NCBI RefSeq assembly: GCF_021631985.1
Contig: NZ_CP070225.1
Location: 2,728,001-2,792,000 of the forward strand
Reading direction: 5' to 3'
Source of the DNA: Sandaracinus amylolyticus
GTDB taxonomy: Bacteria; Myxococcota_A; Polyangia; Polyangiales; Sandaracinaceae
Length of the DNA stretch: 64,000 nucleotides
Shown: piece by piece, positions 9,386 to 64,000 of the stretch
Position numbering within the stretch: the stretch's first letter is position 1
Layout of the letters: every line of letters starts with the position of its first letter
The notes under the pieces: generated by a model
What the model was told of the DNA's origin: nothing
Database searches by the model: none
Seen by the model: only the letters and a program-made list of their open reading frames with translations
Made by a program: the position numbers and the translations under genes

Positions 9386-10555
9386 TCAGGCCGCCGCGAG
9401 CCTCGGCACGAAGGGCGTGCGGGTGCGCGCGACGCTGATCATCGCGCCGAGGAGCTTGCGCATCGCAGCGATGATCGCGAGCTTCTTCGGCTTTCCGGCC
9501 GCGACCAGGCGCCCGTAGAACGCCTTGAGCCACGGGTTGTGGGTCACCGCTCGCAGCGTCGGCATCCAGAGCTTCGCGCGCAGGTCGGCGTCGCCCATCG
9601 TGCAGGCGGGGCCTCGCAGTGGCTGGCGCTTGCCTGAGTGGCTCACGATCGGGGCGACGCCGACGTACGCCGCGAGCGCGGCCGCGCTCTTGAACGCGTC
9701 GAAGTCGATCGAGGCGATCATCCGCGCCGCGGTGTTGTCGCCGACGCCGTCGATGGTGGTCAGCAGCTTGCCGACCTCGTGGCGCTCGAGGCTCTGGCCG
9801 ATGTCGTCGTCGAGCTTCTTGATCCGCGCTCGGAGCGTCGCGATGTCCTCGCACGCGTAGCGGATCTGAAGCTCGTACGCCGTGCCCTGGTGGCGGCCCA
9901 CGGAGGTCTTCGCAGCCGCGCAGAGCGCTTGCGCGAGCTCGACACCGATGACGTGGCGGCCGTCGTACTTCAGCTCCGCCAGCGCGTTCGGGTCGGCAGC
10001 ACGGAAGGCCTCGGCGGTCGGACTCGCGATGAGCAGCGTGGTCGCTTTGGCCGAAGCCACGTCGCGCACGTGCTCGGTGAACTCCGGAAAACAGAGGTCG
10101 AGCGCGCGGTGCAGTTGCCGCGTGCGGTCGCCGAGGTCCTGCACGAGGCGGTCGCGAAGCCGGATCAGCTCACGCAGCTCGAGCGTGGCCTCATCGGGCA
10201 TCGGGGTCGCCGCAGGTCTCTTCTGCTGCGCGAAGCGTGCGATGCCCAGAGCGTCGAGCGCGTCGGTCTTCGCGCGCCGCAGATCCTCGGCTGCAAACCG
10301 CGACGTGCGCGTCGGGTTCAACAGCGCGACCTGAAACCCTGCTGCATGCAGGAACGCGAAGAGGTTCTGCCAATAGTGCCCCGTCGCCTCCATCGCGATG
10401 AACGCGTCGGCGGGCTCACCGAGCATCGAGCGCAGTCGTTCGTAGCCCGACGCGTCTTCGGAGAACGGCGTCGGCTTCCGCAGTGCCTTGCCCGCCTCGT
10501 CCACGATCGCGACGACGTGCTTCTCCGAACCGATGTCGATCCCGACGAATCTCAT
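9386..10555 (-). CDS. IS110-family transposase
   Basis: This 389-aa recombinase appears intact. The N-terminal DEDD (RuvC-like) domain starts with VGIDIGSEKHVVAIVDE (Asp7), followed by FIAMEATGHYW with the catalytic Glu and KTDALDALGIARFA with further acidic residues. The C-terminal Transposase_20 domain has a helix-hairpin-helix (TTIDGVGDNTAARMIASI) and YVGVAPIVSHSGKRQ, which holds the region of the conserved Ser. The ATG at 10555 (MRFVGID) aligns with family starts; the frame extends 49 codons further upstream without homology. It probably moves by IS110-type recombination between two DNA sites. Confidence 0.95.
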   Translation of the reverse strand: MRFVGIDIGSEKHVVAIVDEAGKALRKPTPFSEDASGYERLRSMLGEPADAFIAMEATGHYWQNLFAFLHAAGFQVALLNPTRTSRFAAEDLRRAKTDALDALGIARFAQQKRPAATPMPDEATLELRELIRLRDRLVQDLGDRTRQLHRALDLCFPEFTEHVRDVASAKATTLLIASPTAEAFRAADPNALAELKYDGRHVIGVELAQALCAAAKTSVGRHQGTAYELQIRYACEDIATLRARIKKLDDDIGQSLERHEVGKLLTTIDGVGDNTAARMIASIDFDAFKSAAALAAYVGVAPIVSHSGKRQPLRGPACTMGDADLRAKLWMPTLRAVTHNPWLKAFYGRLVAAGKPKKLAIIAAMRKLLGAMISVARTRTPFVPRLAAA

Positions 10556-10795
10556 GTGCCTCTCGAGCTCGTGTTCGCGTCCCCGGGAGCCTCGGAGCCG
10601 AGCTTCGTGCCCTTGCTTGTCCATGCGAGGACGGTGGACGAGCCACGCCTCTGGATACCGTTCGAGCAAAGAAACTCGGTCGAGGGCGCCAATCTCAGTC
10701 ACGGGGACGATGCCCCAAGCCCTACGCGGCGACCCTCTCCCGAAACCGCTGGACCGGCAGCCCTACCACGGCGGGCAATCGGCCGGTGCACTAGA
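10556..10795 (-). ncRNA. Candidate IS110 left-end non-coding (bridge-type) RNA region
   Basis: About 240 bp upstream of the transposase start contains no gene. In IS110-group elements this end encodes a structured guide RNA read in the same direction as the transposase. Hairpins visible on the minus strand include GGGG-CATCGT-CCCC (10703-10716) and an AGCTCG.../CGAG-GCT stem near 10590-10605. This is inference from family architecture; no guide loops were matched to the flanks. Confidence 0.25.
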
Positions 10796-27580: not shown

Positions 27581-29536
27581 ATGTGCGGCATCTCGGGGAT
27601 CTGGTCGATCGATGGGCGAGGGGATGCGCTCCGCGCGCGGGCCGCGGTCATTCGCGATTCGATCGCGCATCGCGGTCCTGACGACGCGGGCGAGTGGGAG
27701 GAGACGACGTGCGGGCTCGTGTTGGGCCAGCGACGCCTGTCGATCCTCGACCTCTCGCCGCTCGGGCATCAGCCGATGGTGTCGGCCTCGGGCCGCTACG
27801 TCGTCGTGTTCAACGGCGAGATCTACAACCATCTGCGCATTCGTGCGGAGCTCCCCGACGTTGCGTTCCGCGGCACGTCGGACACCGAGACGCTGCTCGC
27901 CGCGATCGAGCGCTGGGGCCTCGAGGGCGCGCTCTCGCGCTTCGTCGGGATGTTCGCGATCGCGCTGTGGGATCGCGAGGCGCGCACGCTGCAGCTCGTG
28001 CGCGATCGCCTCGGCATCAAGCCGCTCTACTGGGGGCGCACGACGCGCGGCGATCTGCTCTTCGGCTCGGAGCTGCGCGCGCTGCGGACGCACCCCGAGT
28101 TCGACACGACGATCGATCGCGAAGCGCTCACCGCGTACTTCGAGACGAGCTGTGTCCCGGCACCGCTCTCGATCCACCGCGCCGCGCGCAAGCTCGAGCC
28201 CGGGACGATCCTGACGTTCCGCGCGCCGCAGCGCGATCCCCAAGCGACGCGCTACTGGCGCGTGGAGGACGTCGCACACGACGGACTTCGGGATCCGCTC
28301 CGCGACTCCGAGCCGGAGATCCTGGAGCGCATCGAGGAGACGCTCCGGGACGCGGTGCGCCTGCGCCTCCTGTCGGACGTGCCGCTCGGCGCGTTCCTCT
28401 CGGGAGGCATCGACTCCTCGCTGGTCGTCGCGATCGCGCAAGAGCTCTCGAGCGCGCCGCTCCGCACGTATTCGATCGGCAGCACGGACGCGGCGTACGA
28501 CGAGTCGGCGTTCGCGTCGGAGGTCGCGCGTCGCCTCGGGACCCGGCACACGGCGCTCACCGTCCGCGACGCCGAGGCCCGCGAGATCGTGCCGCAGCTG
28601 GCTTCGATCTACGACGAGCCGTTCGCCGACAGCTCGCAGATCCCGACGTTCCTCGTCTCGCGTCTCGCGCGCAACGACGTCACGGTCGCGCTCTCGGGCG
28701 ACGGCGGAGACGAGCTCTTCGGCGGGTACAACCGGTACCTGTGGGCACCGCGCCTCGCGCGCGTCCAGTCGGTCCCGCGTGCCGCGCGCCGGGTCGCAGC
28801 GGCAGCGCTGGAGCTGCTGCCGACGAGCGCGTGGGACTCCATCCACGCGCACCTCAGTCCTCCGCTGCCGCCAGTGCGGCTCGTCGGCGACAAGCTGCAC
28901 AAGGGTGCTCGCGTGCTGCGCACGGGCTCGATCGACGAGATGTACGCCGCTCTGCGTCGGCAGTGGTGGCCCTCGCCCGTGCTCGACGTGCTGACACCCG
29001 ACGAGGCCGTGCACGCCGGGCGTACGTTCGACGCGGCACATGCGCTGATGCTCCGGGATGCTGCCGCGTACCTGCCGGACGACATCCTCACGAAGGTCGA
29101 CCGTGCGAGCATGGCAGTCGCGCTCGAGGCGCGGGTTCCGATCCTGGACCACCGTGTCGTCGAGCTCGCGTGGCGTGTTCCGATGCGGATGAAGATCCGC
29201 GACGGGAAGGGCAAATGGGCCCTCCGCGAGCTGCTCGCCAAGCGACTTCCGCGTGACGTGTTCGAGCGCCCGAAGACCGGGTTCAGCGTGCCCGTCGGCG
29301 CGTGGCTCCGCGGTCCGCTGCGCGACTGGGCCGAGTCCCTGCTGGACGCGAAGTCGCTCGAGTCCGCAGGGCTCGATGCGCGGCTCGTGCGTGCGCGCTG
29401 GCAGGCGCATCAGGAGGGCGCAGCCGACGCCGGTCTCGCGCTCTGGGACGTGCTCGCATTCGCGGCGTGGCAGCGGGAGATCGAGCGAGGCGTACGCGCG
29501 GAGGCGAGAGATCCGTTCGCGAGGAGCTCGGCGTGA
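27581..29536 (+). CDS. asnB: Asparagine synthase (glutamine-hydrolysing) family amidotransferase
   Basis: This 651-aa protein has an intact class II glutamine amidotransferase domain (Cys2 in MCGISGIW, AHRGPDDAGEW, VVFNGEIYNH) and a synthetase domain with the PP-loop LSGGIDSSLVVAIA near residue 275 and SGDGGDELFGGYNRYLW. Inside exopolysaccharide loci such enzymes often amidate uronic acids (WbpS-like) rather than make free asparagine. The uronic-acid donor genes downstream support that reading but do not prove it. It starts 9 bp after the Wzc-like gene and overlaps the next by 4 bp. Confidence 0.9.
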   Translation: MCGISGIWSIDGRGDALRARAAVIRDSIAHRGPDDAGEWEETTCGLVLGQRRLSILDLSPLGHQPMVSASGRYVVVFNGEIYNHLRIRAELPDVAFRGTSDTETLLAAIERWGLEGALSRFVGMFAIALWDREARTLQLVRDRLGIKPLYWGRTTRGDLLFGSELRALRTHPEFDTTIDREALTAYFETSCVPAPLSIHRAARKLEPGTILTFRAPQRDPQATRYWRVEDVAHDGLRDPLRDSEPEILERIEETLRDAVRLRLLSDVPLGAFLSGGIDSSLVVAIAQELSSAPLRTYSIGSTDAAYDESAFASEVARRLGTRHTALTVRDAEAREIVPQLASIYDEPFADSSQIPTFLVSRLARNDVTVALSGDGGDELFGGYNRYLWAPRLARVQSVPRAARRVAAAALELLPTSAWDSIHAHLSPPLPPVRLVGDKLHKGARVLRTGSIDEMYAALRRQWWPSPVLDVLTPDEAVHAGRTFDAAHALMLRDAAAYLPDDILTKVDRASMAVALEARVPILDHRVVELAWRVPMRMKIRDGKGKWALRELLAKRLPRDVFERPKTGFSVPVGAWLRGPLRDWAESLLDAKSLESAGLDARLVRARWQAHQEGAADAGLALWDVLAFAAWQREIERGVRAEARDPFARSSA

Positions 29537-55431: not shown

Positions 55432-55523
55432 GAATCAGCGGGTTTCGTAGACGCTGCCGGCGGGCTCTGCAACCAGCGTATATGTCCTCTGCGAATGCGG
55501 TCGAGGAAGCCGAGAGGACGCGT

Positions 55524-57173
55524 GTGAGCATCGCATCGACCTTTGCGATCCTACGCCGACTGGGTGGAGCGCGTGCGGACTGGGCGCGCGCTGCCGCGCT
55601 GGGTGTGCTCGCGGCGGTCGCGGAGATCGTGCTCGCTCTCGCTTTCGCCGCGCTCGCCCGCGGGGCGTCGGACGGCGGGACCTCGACGGCCGCACTCTGG
55701 CCGGTGGCGCTGGCGCTCGGCGGTGCCGCGGCCGGGCGCGTCTGCGTGGGGATCGCCATCCATCACCTGACGGCCACGAGCGCGGTCGAAGCGTCACGCG
55801 CGCTGCGTCGGGTGGGCTTGGATGTCGCGCTGCGCGCCGATGCGCGGGGGCTCGAGCCCGCGACGGATGTGCTCTCGCGCTGGATCGAGCGCGTGCCGCG
55901 CGCGACGCAGGCGCGACAGGCATCGGTCGGGCTCGTCGCGTGGTCGGTCCAGTCCCTGTGCCTCGGTGCGCTGGTGATCGTGAAGGCGCCCTCGATCGGG
56001 CTCGCGATGATCGCGGTCCTGATCGCCAGCGGCGCGATCGCGGCGCTGCTCGCGCGGCGCGTGCGGCGCATCGCACGCGGTCTGGCGCCGGCGCAGCGTC
56101 GCATCGCGAGCACCCTCGAGCGCGTGACGCGCCGCGCGTGGGAAATCCGCGCGCTGCGGACCGTCGCCATCGAGCGCGCGCGGCTCGCGCGGGACGTCGA
56201 CGCACACGCCGAGGAGCAGACGCGTGTCGCGACGGCGAGCGCGCTCGCGAGCGCATCCCCGCTGCTGCCGGCCCTGCTGGCGATCGGTGCGCTCGCGAGC
56301 GCGGGGCTCGCATCGGGCCTCGCGCTCGCGGATCTCGTCGCGATGCTCTACGCGCTCGTGCGGCTCGCGTCGTCGCTGACCGCCGCGGGGCACGCGATCG
56401 GCGCGCTCTCCGCAGCGGGCCCGGCGCTCGAGGAGATCGCGCGCGAGGTGCCGCTCGGGAGCGACACCGCCGCAGCAGCGCGCGCCGAGACGAGCGCGCC
56501 GTGCGCGATCGCGCTGGAGAACGTGCGCGTCACCGTGGGCGATCGCGTCGTGCTGCACGACGTGAATCTCGACGTCGCGCCGGGCGAGATCGTGGGGCTC
56601 GTGGGACCGAGTGGGGTCGGCAAGACGACGCTGCTGCGCGCGGTGCTCGGCGTGATCGAGCCTGCTGCGGGACGGGTGCGCATCGACGGGATCGCGCCGG
56701 CGGACTGGTCGCTGCGTGGCGGGCGGCTCGGCCTGGTCACCGCCGAGCCGATGCTCTTCGCCGGGACGCTGCGCGAGAACGTCGCGTACGGGAGCTCGCA
56801 GGTCGACGACGACGCGCTCCTGCGCGCGCTCGCTCGTGCGAGGGCGTCGAGCGTCGCGGGGCAGGGCCTCGACCGCGTGCTCGGCGAGGGAGGCGAGGGC
56901 GTCTCGAGCGGTGAGCGCCAGCGTGTCGCCCTCGCGCGCGCGCTCGTCGGCGATCCCGACCTTCTGGTGCTCGACGAGCCGACCTCGGCGCTCGACACGA
57001 CGCTCGAGCAGGAGATCGCCGCGCTGCTGCGCGATTGTTCGGGGCGATGCACGGTGCTCGTCGCCACCCACCGCGCGGCGCTCCTGAGCGCCTGCGATCG
57101 TGTCGTCGAGGTCGTGCCCGACGACCGCGGCGCGACAGTGATCGAGCGCGCGCGCGACGCGAGGAGCGCGTGA
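55524..57173 (+). CDS. ABC transporter, membrane domain fused to ATPase (peptide/lipid exporter type)
   Basis: This protein of about 549 aa has an N-terminal ABC membrane domain with ~6 segments and a C-terminal ATPase. Walker A is GLVGPSGVGKTTLLRAVLG, the signature is EGVSSGERQRVALARAL and Walker B is LLVLDEPTSALD. No C39 peptidase domain precedes it, so it would not cleave a leader itself. GTG at 55524 has GAGAGGA well placed; ATG at 55482 is in frame but lacks a ribosome binding site. It overlaps the PqqD-like gene by 4 bp, so it belongs to the peptide-modification locus. ATPase confidence is high; substrate is inferred. Confidence 0.85.
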   Translation: MSIASTFAILRRLGGARADWARAAALGVLAAVAEIVLALAFAALARGASDGGTSTAALWPVALALGGAAAGRVCVGIAIHHLTATSAVEASRALRRVGLDVALRADARGLEPATDVLSRWIERVPRATQARQASVGLVAWSVQSLCLGALVIVKAPSIGLAMIAVLIASGAIAALLARRVRRIARGLAPAQRRIASTLERVTRRAWEIRALRTVAIERARLARDVDAHAEEQTRVATASALASASPLLPALLAIGALASAGLASGLALADLVAMLYALVRLASSLTAAGHAIGALSAAGPALEEIAREVPLGSDTAAAARAETSAPCAIALENVRVTVGDRVVLHDVNLDVAPGEIVGLVGPSGVGKTTLLRAVLGVIEPAAGRVRIDGIAPADWSLRGGRLGLVTAEPMLFAGTLRENVAYGSSQVDDDALLRALARARASSVAGQGLDRVLGEGGEGVSSGERQRVALARALVGDPDLLVLDEPTSALDTTLEQEIAALLRDCSGRCTVLVATHRAALLSACDRVVEVVPDDRGATVIERARDARSA

Positions 57174-57442
57174 ACGAGCACGCGAAGCTGACCCACGCGC
57201 CTCGCGCGGTCGCGCGTCGGGTCGCGGGGCGCATGGTGGTCGTGACGTTGCCCGGCCTCGAGACGCGCGTGCTGAACGAAGTGGGCGCGCGCGTGGTCGA
57301 GCTCGCCGACGGGCGCACGTTGGGCGAGATCGTCGACGTGATCACCCGCGAGCTGGATGCGGACCGCGAGGTCGTGCGCTCCGACGTCCACGAGTTCGTG
57401 ATCGAGCTCGTGCGCGAAGGGGTGCTCAGCGCGGACGCGTAG
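57170..57442 (+). CDS. PqqD-like protein (RiPP recognition element) 1
   Basis: This 90-aa PqqD-family protein reads LTHAPRAVARRVAGRMVVVTLPGLETRVLNEVGARVVELADGRTLGEIVDVITRELDADREVVRSDVHEFVIELVREGVL. It has the winged-helix RRE pattern (short strands, NEVGARVVELADG turn, two helices, C-terminal hydrophobic helix). RREs bind leader peptides and present them to modifying enzymes. GTG at 57170 overlaps the ABC transporter stop and has GAGGAG 3 nt before. Its 3' end overlaps the converging kinase gene by 17 bp. Confidence 0.8.
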   Translation: MNEHAKLTHAPRAVARRVAGRMVVVTLPGLETRVLNEVGARVVELADGRTLGEIVDVITRELDADREVVRSDVHEFVIELVREGVLSADA

Positions 57443-58343
57443 CGAGCCACGCGCGCAGCAGCTGCGGGACGACGAGCGGGTCCTCGAGCGCGTCCGGGCC
57501 CGCGACGAGACGCGCCGCGGGGAGGGTTGCGAGGTCGGCGAGGATGTCGATCATCGCGTCGCGATGCGGCGTTCCCGGCACGACGGCGAGCGCGCTCGAC
57601 CCGAGGAGCGTCGCGAACACTGCGGCAGGCTCGACGGGCTCGACGCGAGTGCGCGCGCCGCGCTCGATGCTCGGGATCACGATGGCGTCGACACGCGAGG
57701 GCGACGCGGGCCCTGGAGACGGCGCGCGCACCCGCGTCTTCGCGACGCTGCCATCGAGGACGGGCCCGAGCGCTTCGAGATCGGGATGCGCAGCGCGCGT
57801 CTCGTCGCTGACGTGCGGAGGCCGCCGGATCGGCCACGCCACGCGATGGGCGTCGACGTACGCCGCGTCGTCGCACGCCAGCACGCCACCACCGCGAGCG
57901 ACCGCGAGCGCAGCGCTCGTCTTCCCCGACCCCGACCCGCCCGGGAGCAGGACCGTCGCGCCGTCGAGATGCACGACCGCGGCGTGGGTGTGCACCAGGC
58001 CCGCGTGGGCCGCGACGACGTGGAGCGCGATCGCGGCGGGCAGCCCGCTCGGCCCGTCCACGCGTCCCTGCAGTCCGTGAGGCGTCACCCGGAGCTCGGC
58101 GTGCGGGCTCCACACGATCACCGCATCGGGCTCGAGGACGAGCCGGGCAGGCCCGTAGAACGCCGCATACCGCGCGGGCGCCCGAGGGATCGCGCCGCGC
58201 TCCACGACCCACGGGTAGACCGCGATGCCTTCGCGACCAACCGCCGCGCCGAGGTGCTCGAGGCCGCCGCTCGCGCCCGCGGGCTCGTCGGGCACGTCCC
58301 ACGCGACGCTCAACGCGCCGAGCCGAGCCTCACCCCGGGGCAT
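57426..58343 (-). CDS. HprK-like (HPr kinase-related) kinase
   Basis: This 305-aa protein has a divergent N-terminal half and a C-terminal HPr-kinase-like core. The P-loop is LLPGGSGSGKTSAALAVARGGGVLACDDAAYV (Lys141, with an acidic pair near 155). The long HPr-binding C-terminal helices of true HprK/P are not obvious, and no PTS genes are near. Related kinases occur in lasso-peptide clusters, where they phosphorylate the peptide, and in the so-called HPr-rel-A gene sets with PqqD-like proteins. It overlaps PqqD-2 by 14 bp, so translational coupling is likely. Confidence 0.75.
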   Translation of the reverse strand: MPRGEARLGALSVAWDVPDEPAGASGGLEHLGAAVGREGIAVYPWVVERGAIPRAPARYAAFYGPARLVLEPDAVIVWSPHAELRVTPHGLQGRVDGPSGLPAAIALHVVAAHAGLVHTHAAVVHLDGATVLLPGGSGSGKTSAALAVARGGGVLACDDAAYVDAHRVAWPIRRPPHVSDETRAAHPDLEALGPVLDGSVAKTRVRAPSPGPASPSRVDAIVIPSIERGARTRVEPVEPAAVFATLLGSSALAVVPGTPHRDAMIDILADLATLPAARLVAGPDALEDPLVVPQLLRAWLATRPR

Positions 58344-58617
58344 CCGCGGGGTCGACCACGTCGATCAATCCGAGCTTCTGAAGCTCGTCGAGCCACGTCT
58401 CAGTGTCGGCCCGAGCGACATCGACCCCGACGTCGAAGACGCGCACGAGCATCGCCGCGAGCTCGTCGAGCGTCGCCGGAGCCGTGAGCGCGGACCAGAG
58501 GGCCTCGCCCGTCTCGTTCAGCGTGAAGTACGCCTTCGAGGCGGGGTCCAGGACGACCCCGCCTCGCGGCAGCTTGGTGTGGATCGCGCGCGTCGACGCG
58601 CGCCAGCGACGCGTCAC
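58330..58617 (-). CDS. PqqD-like protein (RiPP recognition element) 2
   Basis: This 95-aa PqqD-family protein reads HTKLPRGGVVLDPASKAYFTLNETGEALWSALTAPATLDELAAMLVRVFDV...WLDELQKLGLIDV. The AYFTLNETGEALWSAL segment is a textbook PqqD/RRE signature, clearer than in copy 1. GTG start at 58617, one base from the stop of the propeller lipoprotein gene; it overlaps the HprK-like gene. Two different RREs in one locus suggests two enzymes or two peptides are served. Confidence 0.85.
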   Translation of the reverse strand: MTRRWRASTRAIHTKLPRGGVVLDPASKAYFTLNETGEALWSALTAPATLDELAAMLVRVFDVGVDVARADTETWLDELQKLGLIDVVDPADAPG

Positions 58618-58618
58618 G

Positions 58619-60688
58619 TCAGCGCGCGTCGATGGGCTGCTGGGGACGGGGATCGCCCACGGCGCTGACGAACAAGCCGCTGGTGCTCAGCGGGCCCCAG
58701 TTCGTCGGCGTGGCGAAGTACGCGACGTAGCCCGCCTCCGCCTCGCTCGGGTACGAGAGCCCGAGCCGCAGGTCCCCGCTCTGGATCGCGCCGGAGACCG
58801 GCACGAACGGCGTATCGGGCATCAGCTGGATCGTGCTGGCCACCCAGCAGCGGCGAAGGTCGTTCGCCGGGGGCGCGGCGATCGGCGCGGTGGTGTCGCA
58901 GACGTAGATCTGAGTGCCCGGCGCGTTGAAGCCCGAATGGCTCTGCGACGGGACCAGACCGGCCGTGCCGTTCCCGCGGAACGCGATGAACCGACCGCTC
59001 GGCGAGAGCGACGGGATGCCATAGCTGTTCGCGCCGGCGCTGACCGCTGCCCCGGCCGGGTTGGCCGTCACGACCTCGAGCCCGCCGACGCCTTCGCTCG
59101 CGCTCGCACGCACGACGCGCCCGCAGGTGTCCGTGCAGAACGCGACCACGCTCCCGTCGCCGGAGATGCCGGTGTGCGACGGCGCCGTCACGGTCGGGGT
59201 GATCGGATAGAGCACGACCGACCCGGTGAGCGACTCACTGTGATCGTAGACGTAGACGTCCTGGGTCGCGTCGGTGTCCAACGCGGGGTCGAGCTGCCCG
59301 CCCGCGATGAACACGATGCGCTGTCCGTCGTCGCTCACGTCGGCGTAACGAATGGGGTCGCCGTTCGCGCAGGCGGCGTAGCGCGCCGTCGTCGGAGTGT
59401 AGAAGTCCGAGCCGCGGATCGCGCTGACGTGGTGGATCTCGCCCGTCGTCGCGTCGTAGCGATACACGTCGGGACAGCCGCGACCGTTCGGAACGGTCTG
59501 CCCGACGAGGTTCCGCGCCTGGCTCTGGAACACGATCACGGAGCCGTCGCTGTTCAGCCTCGGGAACCGGCTCGCCTGGTTTCCGGCCCCGCCGCCCGTG
59601 GCGGTTGACACGAGCGTGCCGGTTCCGGCGCTTCCGTACTCGTAGCGGTAGATCTGCGACTGTCCCGCGACCGGACATCCGGCCGCCTCGTACGCGAGCA
59701 CCGAGCCGTCGTCCGAGAGGTCGATGTTGAGGACCGACGTGCAGCCCGTCACCAGCGTCGAGACCGCGCCGGAGGCGGAGGTGAGGTCCTTCCGGTGCAC
59801 GGTGCCACCGACGACGTACGCAGCGAACTGCCCGTTCGCCGACAGCGCAATCCCGCGCCCGCTCGTCGGCACGATCGCGGTGTTGGTGGGGTAGGGCCCC
59901 GCGCCGGGATTGTCGCGCGCGCCGTCGGCGAGGCTCGCGCGAACGGTCGGGGTCACGAGCAGTCCGCGGACCTGCACGACGAAGCGGAACGTGAACGTCG
60001 TCCCGGCGGTCGTCCCGCGGAACCCCCAGCGCATCGTCGCGGTGTTGGCGACCGTGGTGCTCGCGCGGCCGAGCTCACCGAACCGGAAGAGCCCGTTCGC
60101 GACCGGCGGGGCGGCGAGCCCGAAGTCCGGCGTCGCGATCTGGAGCGCGTTCGGCACGATCTCGGCGGAGGTCGTGTCGCCCGTCGGCACGAGCTCCAGC
60201 ATCTCGGCGTACGCACGCTCGACCTGCTGGTTCGTGTACAGGCTGCGGAGGCGCACGCCCTGGCAGACGCCGGACAGCGAGCCCGTCGGCTGACTGCCGC
60301 ACGCCGCGACCCACGAGCCCGAGGTCAGCGCGCCGTTCAACACGGTGCCGCGCTCACCGGCGACGTTTCCGAACGTCACGTACCCATTGCCGGTACACGT
60401 CGTGGTCGTGCACGACTGCGACGGGATGTCGACCAACGGCTCCACCGCGACGCCCACCGCCGGGCTCGGATCCACGAGCCCCTCCGGGGTGAGGATGCGG
60501 TAGCTGAGCTCCTCGCCGTCGAACTCACCTTCGATCACTTGGATCACCGGCAGGTCCTCGACGTCGATCGCGCGTGGCCTCGTCGGCTCCGCGGCGTCGG
60601 GCGCGCACGCCGTCAAACCAGCGGCGGGAAGCCCGACGAGCGCGAGGACCAGGGCCGCTGCGCGGCGACGCGACGAGTGACGTTGCAT
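58619..60688 (-). CDS. Secreted TolB/WD40-like beta-propeller lipoprotein
   Basis: This 689-aa protein has a signal peptide with lipobox LTAC (Cys28). Residues about 30-290 form an all-beta domain with several Cys pairs (SQSCTTTTCTGNGYV, AACGSQPTGSLSGVCQG). From about 290 the PD40/TolB-type blades appear (GIALSANGQFAAYVVGGTVHRKDL, DLSDDGSVLAYEAAG, RLNSDGSVIVFQSQARNLVG, DVSDDGQRIVFIAGG, SPSGRFIAFRGNG). The ATG at 60688 has GGAGGGAG upstream. It lies between the radical SAM and RRE genes, so it may be linked to the peptide system, perhaps as a surface receptor; this is inferred only from position. Confidence 0.75.
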   Translation of the reverse strand: MQRHSSRRRAAALVLALVGLPAAGLTACAPDAAEPTRPRAIDVEDLPVIQVIEGEFDGEELSYRILTPEGLVDPSPAVGVAVEPLVDIPSQSCTTTTCTGNGYVTFGNVAGERGTVLNGALTSGSWVAACGSQPTGSLSGVCQGVRLRSLYTNQQVERAYAEMLELVPTGDTTSAEIVPNALQIATPDFGLAAPPVANGLFRFGELGRASTTVANTATMRWGFRGTTAGTTFTFRFVVQVRGLLVTPTVRASLADGARDNPGAGPYPTNTAIVPTSGRGIALSANGQFAAYVVGGTVHRKDLTSASGAVSTLVTGCTSVLNIDLSDDGSVLAYEAAGCPVAGQSQIYRYEYGSAGTGTLVSTATGGGAGNQASRFPRLNSDGSVIVFQSQARNLVGQTVPNGRGCPDVYRYDATTGEIHHVSAIRGSDFYTPTTARYAACANGDPIRYADVSDDGQRIVFIAGGQLDPALDTDATQDVYVYDHSESLTGSVVLYPITPTVTAPSHTGISGDGSVVAFCTDTCGRVVRASASEGVGGLEVVTANPAGAAVSAGANSYGIPSLSPSGRFIAFRGNGTAGLVPSQSHSGFNAPGTQIYVCDTTAPIAAPPANDLRRCWVASTIQLMPDTPFVPVSGAIQSGDLRLGLSYPSEAEAGYVAYFATPTNWGPLSTSGLFVSAVGDPRPQQPIDAR

Positions 60689-60792: not shown

Positions 60793-61845
60793 TCAGCGCG
60801 CGACGGGCAGGGCCCGCTTCGCGCCGCCTCGGGCGTGGTGTAGCGCACCCCTCCATCGTGGCCGCTCGGCGTCGGGCCCATCGCGACCATCGACCGACCA
60901 ATGCGGGCGACCGAAGCGTCGGAGGCACGAATTGCATTGGTGGTCGCGCCACGGCCCGGTCGCATCCGTCGAACGCGCAAGGATCTCGTTCTGTTGGATC
61001 TCGACGAGCGCCTCTCGGAGCGCACCCAACCCGCGACTCGCGTCTCCCACCACGCTCGGATCCGTGCCGCGATGCGGGACCTGCGAGTGCAAGCAGCAGA
61101 GCGTGAGCCGTCCGTGCACGTCGACGTGCAAGGTCTCGCCGCGAAGGGGGCCGCACAGCGCCGGCGCATCGTCCGCCGAGGGCCATCCCGTCGTCGTCAG
61201 CACCGGGAGCGCCACGCGCGCTCGGAGCGCTCGGACTCGCGCGTCGACGCTGCGCCAGGCATCGGGATCGAGCCGCAGCCCGTCGTCGAGGGGCGTCCCG
61301 GTCGCCTGCATTGCGCCGAAGCGGACCCACGCGGCGCCGAGCGCCTCGGCCTCTGCCGCGATCGCCTCGATCTCGTCGACGTTCCTGGCGTGGATCGTCG
61401 TCGTGATCCCGAACGGCACACCGAGCGCGACCGACACCGAGGCCGCGCTCAGCACTTCGCGACGCTGGCCGGCGCCCCTGATCGAGTCGTGCGTCGCGTC
61501 GGACGCACCGTCGAGGCTCAGCGCGATCCAGCGACACGCGTCTCGGCGCGCCGGTGCCTCGTCGAGCCAGAGCGCGACACGCTCGAACCGTCGGCCGTTC
61601 GAGACCATGTCCCAACGCATCCCGTGAGCGACGACGAGATCGAGGATCGCCGGGAAGTCGGGATGCAGCGTCGGCTCACCACCCGTCAGTGACGCGTGCC
61701 GAATGCCGAGCTCGGTCGCTGCTTCGGCGAGCACGGCCGCGATGGTCGCCAGGGGCAGGTCGACCGGTTGCGTGCCGGGGTCACGCAGGCAGTGATCGCA
61801 GTCGAGCTGGCAGCGATCCGTCAGGTGGAACCCGACGCGCTGCAC
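60793..61845 (-). CDS. Radical SAM enzyme with SPASM-like C-terminus
   Basis: This 350-aa protein has the [4Fe-4S] motif C12-x3-C16-x2-C19 (TDRCQLDCDHC), then ASLTGGEPTLHPDF (GGE motif) and WIALSLDGASDATHDSIRG. The C-terminal region carries further Cys (ALCGPLRG, LTLCCLHSQ, HQCNSCLRRFG), consistent with an auxiliary cluster as in SPASM/twitch peptide-modifying enzymes. GTG at 61845 was chosen: GAGGAG, lying inside the 3' end of the small upstream gene, is 7 nt away. It starts 4 bp after the candidate precursor stop, so the peptide and enzyme are translationally coupled. Confidence 0.85.
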   Translation of the reverse strand: MQRVGFHLTDRCQLDCDHCLRDPGTQPVDLPLATIAAVLAEAATELGIRHASLTGGEPTLHPDFPAILDLVVAHGMRWDMVSNGRRFERVALWLDEAPARRDACRWIALSLDGASDATHDSIRGAGQRREVLSAASVSVALGVPFGITTTIHARNVDEIEAIAAEAEALGAAWVRFGAMQATGTPLDDGLRLDPDAWRSVDARVRALRARVALPVLTTTGWPSADDAPALCGPLRGETLHVDVHGRLTLCCLHSQVPHRGTDPSVVGDASRGLGALREALVEIQQNEILARSTDATGPWRDHQCNSCLRRFGRPHWSVDGRDGPDAERPRWRGALHHARGGAKRALPVAR

Positions 61846-61849
61846 GTGC

Positions 61850-62044
61850 TCACTCCTCGCCGGGACCGAAGATGTCCTCGGTGCCCGAGGTCGGTTGGAG
61901 CGTGTTCGAAGCGATGGGGATGCGGCGCTCGATCCGCGGCGACTCGTACGCCCTGCGGCCGTTCGACTTCGACTCCGTGGTCGTCGTGTCCGCCGCGCGG
62001 TCGTCCGCGTTCTTCCCCTCTCGCATCGTGGCCCCGTTCTGCAT
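61850..62044 (-). CDS. Candidate RiPP precursor peptide (64 aa, Y-x-x-P-x-I leader motif)
   Basis: This 64-aa peptide has no Cys or Trp. The leader is polar and charged (Thr/Asp/Lys-rich, residues 1-30). The motif Y33-x-x-P36-x-I38 (AYESPRIERR) matches the Y-x-x-P-x-L element of lasso leaders that RREs bind. The C-terminal part runs RIPIASNTLQPTSG to TEDIFGPGEE. Its only aromatic is Phe59. ATG at 62044 is used; ATG at 62026 would give 58 aa. It is placed directly before the radical SAM gene, as precursor genes usually are. Identity as a precursor is inference. Confidence 0.65.
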   Translation of the reverse strand: MQNGATMREGKNADDRAADTTTTESKSNGRRAYESPRIERRIPIASNTLQPTSGTEDIFGPGEE

Positions 62045-62080
62045 GGACCGTGTAGTTGTGTCAAGAGAGGCAATCGTTCG

Positions 62081-62932
62081 ATGGACGAGCGCGAAATCGC
62101 TGCAGCGATGGCCGTCGTCGCGGGGCGTGAGCTGCTCGCGCGCGCCGCGGACGCGCTGGCGACGGTCGACGTCGTGCCGGTCGCTCTGAAGGGAGTCGTG
62201 CTGTCGGCGCTCTCGGAGGGTTGGGGGGCTCCGCCGCGTCGGATGCTCGATGTCGACGTCCTCGTGAGGCCGCGCGAGCGGGACGTCGCGGAGCGGGCAT
62301 TGGCTGCCGCGGGGCTCGAGCCGGTGGCTCGCTCGGCGGTCGCGACGACGATGCGCTCGAGCGAGCTGGGGCTCGATCTCGATCTCCACGCGGCGCTGGT
62401 CGAGCCCGAGCTGTTCCAGCTCGACACGGAGGGTCTGGTCGAGCGGGCCGAGGACGCCTCGGCGCTGTTCGGACATCCGGTCCTCGTGCTCGAGCGCCAC
62501 GACATGTACGCGCACCTCGTCGCGCACTTCGCACGCAATCGCTCGAACGTGCGGGACCAGCGACGCCTCGGCGATTTCTCGATCGTCGCCCGCGCGCTCC
62601 CGATGCGCCCCGAGGTCCTCGCGACGCACCTCGTCGATCGAGGGCTCGCGCGTGCGGCGCGCTACGCGTTGGCGCTGGCGTCGCGCCAGGGCGATCGGTT
62701 CGCGGCGTCGGTCCTGTCGGCGCTGCCTCGAGACACGGTCGGCGCGATCGTCGCGCGTGGCGCCGAATCCTGGCTCTCGGCGCACGCCGGCAACGCGCCG
62801 CTCGCCGTGCCCGCGCTGCACGCGCTCAATCACTCGCTGCCCGCGGGAATGCGCTCGCTGACCGCCCACGCGACCCGTGCTCTGGCGTCACGTGCGCGGC
62901 GGGTGCTCGAACGTGCGGCAGAATCGCGGTGA
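62081..62932 (+). CDS. Nucleotidyltransferase-like protein (NTP_transf_5 type)
   Basis: This 283-aa protein has VALKGVVLSALSEGWGAPPRRMLDVDVLVRPRERDVAERAL. The LKG segment and D57-x-D59 metal pair match the NTP_transf_5 family seen next to HprK-like kinases, B2 proteases and RREs in lasso-peptide and related loci. Downstream, HDMYAHLVAHFARNRSNVRDQRRLGDF is also typical. The AMP/NMP-transfer substrate is unknown. It diverges from the precursor gene over only 36 bp and overlaps the B2-like gene tail-to-tail by 45 bp. AAGAGAGG lies 10 nt before the ATG. Confidence 0.8.
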   Translation: MDEREIAAAMAVVAGRELLARAADALATVDVVPVALKGVVLSALSEGWGAPPRRMLDVDVLVRPRERDVAERALAAAGLEPVARSAVATTMRSSELGLDLDLHAALVEPELFQLDTEGLVERAEDASALFGHPVLVLERHDMYAHLVAHFARNRSNVRDQRRLGDFSIVARALPMRPEVLATHLVDRGLARAARYALALASRQGDRFAASVLSALPRDTVGAIVARGAESWLSAHAGNAPLAVPALHALNHSLPAGMRSLTAHATRALASRARRVLERAAESR

Positions 62933-63298
62933 GCCCGGCTCGAGGAACGGCGCGCCGTCCAGCTCGAGCCACGCGTGCCCGCTCGCGACGTCGTCCTCGT
63001 CGACGCCCATCACGAACCGCGGCGCGTAGCCCGACTCCCGGAGCAACGCGTAGCGCGCGAGGGCTCGGTAGAGACAGGTGTCCGGGCCGATCGCGCATCG
63101 ACGGCTCACGCCCTCGCCGAAGGCGATGCCCGCCGTGACGTCCTCGCGCGTCAGCGTTGCGCGTGCGGTCGGCCGATCGAGCGAGGCGAGCAGCGCATCG
63201 AGCGGGTCCGAACGAAATCGCCGAACGACGTCGATGCGCAGCGCGACGTATCGCGCTGCGCATCGAGCACGTCGGACGGCGGTCCGGATCAGCGGCAA
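62888..63298 (-). CDS. Lasso-type B2 (McjB C-terminal/transglutaminase core 3) cysteine protease
   Basis: This protein of about 136 aa has the catalytic triad Cys75 (IGPDTCLYRALARYALLRESGY), His108 (ASGHAWLELDG) and Asp114. The region APRFVMGVDEDDVASGHAWLEL is a close pattern match to lasso B2 leader peptidases. There is no ATG or GTG at the right place; TTG at 63298, inside the end of the upstream MopE-like gene, gives the expected length. The exact start is therefore uncertain. It would remove the leader from the modified peptide. Confidence 0.8.
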   Translation of the reverse strand: MPLIRTAVRRARCAARYVALRIDVVRRFRSDPLDALLASLDRPTARATLTREDVTAGIAFGEGVSRRCAIGPDTCLYRALARYALLRESGYAPRFVMGVDEDDVASGHAWLELDGAPFLEPGSPRFCRTFEHPPRT

Positions 63299-64000
63299 CC
63301 CTGGGTGCGCGTCTCGATCACCGGCGCACACGCGGCCGAGCAGCTCGCGATGAACGCGGCGGACTCGCCGCAGCCCGGCACCGTCGCCGCCTGCCAGCCG
63401 GCCGTCGTGGTGCACGAGCCGGCGGATCCGGTGCACGAGCCCTGCGCTTCGTACTGGAGTGCCTCGCTGTAGTCGCAGTCGAAGTCGAAGGGAACGATCC
63501 CGTCGACCGCGGCGGTCGTGAAGAACCCGGTCACGCCGCTGTGCGCGCGGGTGTCTCCGTCCGCGCAGTCGAAGTCGTCGAACTGCGGCGCTCGCGAGGT
63601 CCACGCGGGCGACGCGGTGGTGCAGCCGGTCGCACCGGGCGTCGGCATCGTGCAGCCGTCGATGCTCGGGGCGGCCTCCACGGCCCACCCGTCTCCGTCG
63701 CAGTCGGGGTAGAACGTCCCGGTCAACCGCTCGTCGATCGCGCCGTCGCAGTCGTCGTCTTCTGCGTCGCACGTCTCGCTCGCGCCGGTGTGGCGCAGCG
63801 GGTCGCCGTCGTTGCAGTCGGTGCACGCGCCGTCGCCGTCACCGTCGACGTCGACCGGGGTGTGCACGCAGCCCGTCGCTGCGGCGCAGGTGTCCGTGGT
63901 GCAGTCCATCAGGTCGTCGCAGACCAGAGGGCCGGCGGAGGGCATGCACATGCCGTCGACGCACTGCTCTTCGCCGTCGCAGCGGTCGGCGTTCTGACAG
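63289..64000 (-). CDS. MopE-like secreted Cys/Asp-rich metal-binding-motif protein (N-terminus beyond window)
   Basis: The frame is open to the window edge, so the start lies outside. The visible ~237 aa contain CQNADRCDGEEQCVDGMC, then the repeat DVDGDGDGACTDCNDGDPLRHTGASETCDAEDDDCDGAIDE, the classic putative metal-binding MopE repeat. A second unit follows, FYPDCDGDGW...FDDFDCADGDTRAHSG. Such Ca2+/metal-binding, disulfide-rich proteins are abundant on the surface of large myxobacteria. Its last 10 bp overlap the B2-like gene. A role in the peptide system is not shown. Confidence 0.85.
   Translation of the reverse strand, partial: CQNADRCDGEEQCVDGMCMPSAGPLVCDDLMDCTTDTCAAATGCVHTPVDVDGDGDGACTDCNDGDPLRHTGASETCDAEDDDCDGAIDERLTGTFYPDCDGDGWAVEAAPSIDGCTMPTPGATGCTTASPAWTSRAPQFDDFDCADGDTRAHSGVTGFFTTAAVDGIVPFDFDCDYSEALQYEAQGSCTGSAGSCTTTAGWQAATVPGCGESAAFIASCSAACAPVIETRTQGCR

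Follow-up and report, generated by a model that had tools for sequence, protein, structure and literature searches.

The 64,000-nucleotide stretch of the Sandaracinus amylolyticus genome analysed here (hereafter, the window) encodes a short peptide and a set of enzymes that very probably represent a RiPP family that draws on the machinery known from phosphorylated lasso peptides and from LPPs, and in which the lasso cyclase appears to have been replaced by a radical SAM (rSAM) enzyme with a truncated SPASM domain. The peptide, its leader register, the accompanying cassette and the catalytic motifs of the cassette enzymes are conserved across relatives, the cluster has no cyclase gene, and the type of core peptide agrees with the clade to which the rSAM belongs.

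A conserved precursor gene upstream of a radical SAM gene

The precursor gene lies at positions 61850 to 62044 on the reverse strand and comprises 64 codons followed by a TGA stop. Its assignment draws on the open reading frame, on purifying selection relative to a second genome of the same genus (G008) and on 28 homologous precursors. Translation yields MQNGATMREGKNADDRAADTTTTESKSNGRRAYESPRIERRIPIASNTLQPTSGTEDIFGPGEE, which contains Tyr33, Pro36, Ile38 and Phe59 and has neither cysteine nor tryptophan, confirming the description in the initial annotation of a 64-residue peptide free of both residues and carrying Y33-x-x-P36-x-I38. The final two codons of the gene form the sequence GAGGAG (61853-61858), as had also been noted of the ribosome binding site of the rSAM gene; since this sits 7 nt ahead of the rSAM GTG codon at 61845, translational coupling of the two genes is plausible. 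The start codon of the precursor is uncertain, either Met1 or Met7, both of which are retained in G008 and in a further relative, G009. Immediately ahead of the start, the sequence TTGACACAAC (62045-62075, reverse strand) is conserved in the window, G008 and G009. A consensus scan upstream of the precursor detected no sigma-70 promoter, and in a search of the organism's own genome (10.96 Mb, two contigs) for precursor paralogues the only significant match was the gene itself.

Comparison with G008, whose rSAM protein is 84% identical to that of the window, revealed four synonymous and no non-synonymous differences over the final 37 codons, stop included, such that the 36 C-terminal residues from Gly29 are identical, while the N-terminal part of the G008 precursor is variable and differs in length in frame. 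A peptide of 51-75 aa lies upstream of every close rSAM orthologue with adequate coverage, giving 28 precursors and placing the family in at least 27 genomes. These belong to several families of myxobacteria and, outside that class, to one further family of the Myxococcota. Within the order, 25 genomes contain an rSAM orthologue at E < 1e-60 and all 25 encode a YxxP peptide upstream on the same strand; such a peptide is present even in G004, where the rSAM gene is truncated by the contig end. In the family from the second class (f36), represented by G225 and by G415, which is identical to it, a beta-propeller-like gene separates the peptide from the rSAM gene 2 kb downstream; in two other members of this family (G371 and G418) only a shorter upstream stretch was covered. 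No YxxP precursor was found within 12 kb of the more divergent rSAM gene of G187, and when GTDB contigs were scanned with a degenerate rSAM pattern, two distant relatives were the only matches.

As a control, 2116 six-frame open reading frames of 40-130 aa from 450 kb of related loci were scanned with the register pattern Y..P.[ILVTF]-x9-[TVIA]L. All 21 matches lie upstream of an rSAM gene on its own strand and none elsewhere; some loci were missed because the peptide lies inside a longer reading frame, where it becomes visible through shorter starts. On the strength of this control and of the codon differences relative to G008, we rejected a chance reading frame or an opposite-strand shadow. 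The peptide is real and conserved, and we take it to be a RiPP precursor. An alignment of the small peptides encoded ahead of homologous rSAM genes, in which the Y-x-x-P motif is invariant, supports the proposal of a precursor that has a YxxPxI leader of the RRE type and is coupled to the rSAM gene.

Leader motif, predicted cleavage register and core

The leader motif, expected to be the docking site of the RRE, spans Tyr33 to Ile38 (61931-61948, reverse strand). In the alignment, Tyr33 and Pro36 occur in all 28 precursors and position 38 is Leu, Ile or Val in 27. Leu49 is likewise invariant, 16 residues past the tyrosine without gaps, and is preceded by Thr (23 precursors), Val (three) or Ala (two). 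In a set of lasso peptide leaders, YxxPxL is always found at positions -17 to -12 and residue -2 is Thr, Ile or Val (PMC10368454), and the Tyr-to-Thr distance in the fusilassin leader of PDB 6JX3 chain A (MEKKKYTAPQLAKVGEFKEATG) is the same as in the window's precursor. The family therefore shares the lasso leader register, with Tyr at -17, Pro at -14, Leu or Ile at -12 and Thr or Val at -2, and because of this shared register the leader is predicted to be cut after Thr48-Leu49 (61898-61903, reverse strand), between Leu49 and Gln50.

The predicted core, Gln50 to Glu64, would be the 15-residue sequence QPTSGTEDIFGPGEE (61853-61897, reverse strand), as suggested by the precursor alignment and the rSAM tree. 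Among the 28 precursors the cores range from 9 to 30 residues, vary widely in sequence and have no invariant residue. Position +1 is Phe, Leu, Val, Ile or Ala in 25 of them, and 26 have Ser or Thr at +2; those of the window and G008 open with Gln-Pro, followed by Thr52 and Ser53. In both the Bsf and the LPP systems, core Ser3 is phosphorylated by an HprK-like kinase (Bsf, PMC10368454; LPP, PMC13381572). Given this precedent and the prevalence of Ser or Thr at core position 2 in the relatives, our best guess for the most likely kinase target is Thr52/Ser53, which narrows the earlier suggestion that the kinase could act on Ser or Thr within ASNTLQPTSG.

The surrounding cassette

The precursor belongs to a conserved cassette that includes genes for the rSAM, an RRE of the PqqD type, a B2 peptidase and an HprK-like kinase, and usually for an NTP_transf_5 protein and an ABC transporter. 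Across 24 neighbourhoods the rSAM was found in 23, the kinase in about 22, B2 and the RRE in about 21 each and the ABC transporter in 15; these counts are approximate, as the groups include shadow reading frames. The discrete, B1-like RRE of the window, PqqD-2 (58330-58617, reverse strand), matches PqqD with 61 bits and, as its best NCBIfam model, lasso_PqqD_Strm (E 3e-11). It aligns without gaps to the lasso PqqD chaperone of PDB 9x90, placing Asn34 and Asp71 at Asn33 and Asp70 of LppB, an equivalence that is our own reading of the numbering in PMC13381572. In LppB, Asn33 holds the kink at the proline and Asp70 the tyrosine hydroxyl of the YxxP motif (PMC13381572). Asn34 is present in all 20 aligned PqqD proteins and position 71 is Asp in 16. 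A second RRE-like protein, PqqD-1 (57170-57442, forward strand; PqqD, 48.6 bits), has counterparts in G008 and G009.

The kinase (57426-58343, reverse strand) is recognised by Hpr_kinase_C (E 4e-4) and HprK_rel_A (28 bits), both below their cut-offs, and its His, GxGK[T/S] and Asp-Asp motifs are conserved across relatives with one exception, a Gln in G009. There, the kinase (L022 3361-4290) reads GSGQT instead of the Walker sequence GSGKT, and may be inactive or reflect a sequence error. The transglutaminase-like B2 leader peptidase (62888-63310, reverse strand, with an approximate start) scores 45.3 bits against the lasso_biosyn_B2 model NF033537 (cut-off 33) and 53.7 bits against Transglut_core3, and its TCL...HAW residues are conserved in the relatives. 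The nucleotidyltransferase-like NTP_transf_5 protein (62081-62932, forward strand; PF14907, 75 bits) is encoded on the same contig and within 16 kb of the rSAM gene in most genomes; in some it was not found near the rSAM gene, partly owing to contig ends. The ABC exporter is located at 55482-57173 on the forward strand (ABC_tran, 104.6 bits).

Between the RRE and kinase genes and the rSAM gene lies a gene for a PD40 beta-propeller lipoprotein (58619-60688, reverse strand; PD40, 23.4 bits), which is present in 7 of the 24 neighbourhoods. Genes for PD40 beta-propeller lipoproteins and for Cys-rich, secreted proteins of the MopE-like kind recur in pairs beside the cassette (window, 58619-60688 and 63289-63999; L026, 2290-5497; L019, 1862-6087), and beta-propeller genes also flank the rSAM gene in several other families.

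Absence of a lasso cyclase

The leader motif, the Thr(-2) register, the RRE, B2, the kinase, the NTP transferase and the ABC transporter are all of the lasso type, which could be taken to mean that the product is a genuine lasso peptide, with its cyclase gene at another locus and the rSAM as a tailoring enzyme. No Asn_synthase homologue is encoded in the cluster. The sole homologue within the window is an Asn-synthetase-like gene 32 kb away, at 27581-29536 in an exopolysaccharide locus, and although it might supply such an activity, its product is of the exopolysaccharide/XrtA amidotransferase type, scoring 562 bits with TIGR03108 and only 200 bits with the lasso cyclase model, for which the cut-off is 525; AsnB also matches. 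Moreover, the genomes G158 and G161 possess the cassette and have only weak, partial Asn_synthase hits. The residues expected for a lasso ring are also scarce, as Gly, Ala, Ser or Cys occurs at +1 in only 1 of the 28 cores (Gln in the window) and an acidic residue at positions 7 to 9 in only three, that of the window included. We therefore regard a true lasso peptide as very unlikely.

Possible chemistry of the radical SAM enzyme

The rSAM (60793-61845, reverse strand; 350 aa; Pfam Radical_SAM, 72 bits) contains a CxxxCxxC motif and the further cysteines C231, C250, C251, C304 and C307. In 17 orthologues, CxxxCxxC, C231-X13-G245-X4-C250 and C304-X2-C307 are invariant, as is C251, the sole further invariant cysteine. 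A twitch domain, which has one auxiliary cluster, is characterised by CX9-15GX4C and CX2C without the remaining SPASM cysteines. The set in the window's enzyme corresponds to the first half of the SPASM pattern plus one CxxC and falls within this definition, so that the domain appears to be twitch-like. The assignment rests on cysteine spacing because the AlphaFold model of the rSAM was unusable: prediction without an alignment gave a pLDDT of 35 for the rSAM and 64.5 for PqqD-2, and neither model was used. No NCBIfam equivalog was reached by any of the 17 orthologues, all of which gave only distant matches; the window's rSAM comes closest to ScmF, from the SynChlorMet cassette, with 76 bits against a cut-off of 400.

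The mycofactocin and PqqE models also match the rSAM weakly, far below their cut-offs. As a PqqD-like protein, an rSAM and a short peptide together resemble the PQQ and mycofactocin plan, the peptide might be consumed in the making of a fixed small molecule. We consider such a cofactor-type maturation exceedingly improbable, given the wide variation in the length and sequence of the cores, the lack of any invariant core residue, the presence of a kinase, B2 and an exporter, and the low scores against the two models.

Cysteine occurs in only 3 of the 25 distinct cores and 11 of the 25 have no aromatic residue. If orthologous rSAMs act alike, then neither thioethers nor aromatic crosslinks can be their shared reaction, since most cores have no Cys and 11 have no aromatic. 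Thioethers of the sactipeptide or ranthipeptide type were rejected as the family chemistry on the basis of the three Cys-containing cores and the Cys-free peptide of the window. Phe59 provides an aromatic residue of the kind used in streptide-, triceptide- and darobactin-type modification; the crosslinks to Phe59 envisaged in the initial annotation nevertheless find no support as the chemistry of a family in which orthologous enzymes are paired with aromatic-free cores. It is likely, from the composition of the cores, that the enzyme carries out an epimerisation or another change independent of Cys and aromatic residues. Most compatible with the cores would be a Cα epimerisation or else an oxidation at their conserved Ser/Thr. 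The invariant C251, together with cores free of Cys and aromatic residues, would fit an rSAM peptide epimerase, a match that is compatible rather than diagnostic.

Core types and radical SAM clades

An IQ-TREE phylogeny of 26 rSAMs, rooted at the midpoint, separates a clade comprising the window, G008, G009, G097 and G096 from the rest (support 97/92), and core types follow the rSAM clades. Within this clade, the cores of G009, G096 and G097 carry Cys at both positions 57 and 64 in a C-x6-C arrangement (LSGGECVLPGDPCD, VSGEECVFAPPPC and VSGEQCVFDPPPC), whereas the window and G008 read SGTEDIFGPGEE, with Asp57 and Glu64 at the spacing of the Cys pair of their relatives. In view of the placement of these enzymes in the rSAM tree, the simplest reading is that Cys is probably ancestral and Asp/Glu derived; as this is a single event, compensation cannot be claimed. 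The pattern suggests that a crosslink or a ligand pair at positions 57 and 64 has been lost or exchanged, and the members of the clade with Cys in the core may in addition form their own disulfide or thioether. The absence of cysteine described earlier holds for the window's peptide but is an incomplete account of the lineage, being probably a derived state in a clade where three relatives have two Cys at these positions. In Sorangium-sized genomes the cores are Met-rich. One genome, G117 (L052 and L056), contains two rSAM copies with different precursors, whose cores are ISGTNTAFLPPG and FSGGGSTFF.

Proposed pathway and relationship to known systems

We infer every biochemical step of the RiPP pathway that we propose. 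PqqD-2 would bind Y33-x-x-P36-x-I38 and present the core, the HprK-like kinase would phosphorylate Ser/Thr near the start of the core (Thr52/Ser53 in the window) and the NTP_transf_5 protein would possibly elaborate the phosphorylated Ser/Thr. The rSAM would modify the core, B2 would cut after Thr48-Leu49 and the ABC transporter would export the 15-residue peptide in linear or rSAM-modified form.

The phosphorylated lasso systems (Bsf of Bradymonas, PMC10368454; paeninodin type) have in common with the window family YxxPx[LIV] at -17 to -12, Thr or Val at -2, B1, B2, a kinase, a nucleotidyltransferase and an ABC transporter. In contrast, the window family has a radical SAM enzyme, no lasso cyclase and, as a rule, neither Gly1 nor Asp/Glu at positions 7 to 9; because the cluster has no cyclase and the cores as a rule lack the ring residues, we do not assign it to the lasso peptides. 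The LPPs of Paenibacillus (PMC13381572) are similar in their YxxP leader, bound by a discrete RRE that conserves the Asn and Asp, their HprK-like kinase, NTP transferase and ABC exporter, and the absence of a macrolactam cyclase. LPPs, however, use the signal-peptidase-like LppS, whereas the window cassette has a lasso-type B2, and no signal-peptidase-I-like domain was detected among the ten cluster proteins scanned. The LPP leader, YxxPxVLxHQxIxFETxxS, continues differently from that of the window family, and LPPs, as described, have no radical SAM enzyme, which is conserved here (PMC13381572). The differing protease and leader consensus set the family apart from the LPPs.

A large exopolysaccharide (EPS) locus, with genes for an export protein, a Wzc-like kinase, an XrtA-type amidotransferase and sugar-nucleotide enzymes, adjoins the cassette at approximately 20700-55400, and an IS110-family (RNA-guided) transposase gene is located at 9386-10702 on the reverse strand (243.6 bits). 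We rejected an EPS association as a trait of the family, since it is seen only in Sandaracinus and partly in G002 and is not maintained in Sorangium-sized genomes. The proximity to this locus in Sandaracinus bears on a reading in which the cassette is an LPP-like, linear polyphosphorylated pathway and the rSAM acts on a substrate other than the peptide core, because LPPs, defined by the same set of kinase, RRE, NTP transferase and ABC transporter, likewise sit in polysaccharide loci (PMC13381572). We think this unlikely: no other neighbour accompanies the precursor as constantly as the rSAM, which is directly coupled to it, the rSAM tree tracks the core type, and the EPS neighbourhood is not retained in Sorangium-sized genomes.

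The SynChlorMet cassette (TIGR04248-04251) also brings together radical SAM, PqqD-like and HprK-like proteins, but in this comparison by profile scores all three matches are far under the curated cut-offs (76/400, 13.5/100 and 15/125 bits). The rSAM-SPASM maturases of other RiPPs (sactipeptide, streptide, PqqE and TVG cyclopropylglycine) similarly pair a radical SAM enzyme with a small precursor peptide; they differ from the window family, in which the SPASM Cys set is truncated and the cores mostly lack Cys and often aromatics. Our search, confined to the open-access literature, returned no account of this system and no earlier description of a radical SAM enzyme with HprK in RiPPs, of SynChlorMet or of a radical SAM enzyme with YxxP. 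The family seemingly represents an undescribed branch of the YxxP/RRE/B2/kinase RiPPs that contains an rSAM and has no cyclase. More tentatively, and with rather less than even confidence, we raise the idea that these peptides form a RiPP class of their own: a twitch-type rSAM would take the place of the lasso cyclase and perform a new modification independent of Cys and aromatic residues, the core would also be phosphorylated near its N-terminus and one branch would have swapped a Cys pair for Asp/Glu at identical spacing.

The lasso-type recognition components (YxxP, RRE and B2) and the parts for phosphorylation appear to form a module that accepts different core-modifying enzymes: LPPs showed this module without a cyclase, and in the window family the cyclase is missing and the radical SAM enzyme is constant. 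The precursors identified here form a defined set with a predicted cleavage site. Among them are cores with Cys, with Asp/Glu, rich in Met or free of aromatic residues, all belonging to orthologous enzymes, and this substrate panel allows the chemistry of the rSAM to be tested directly.
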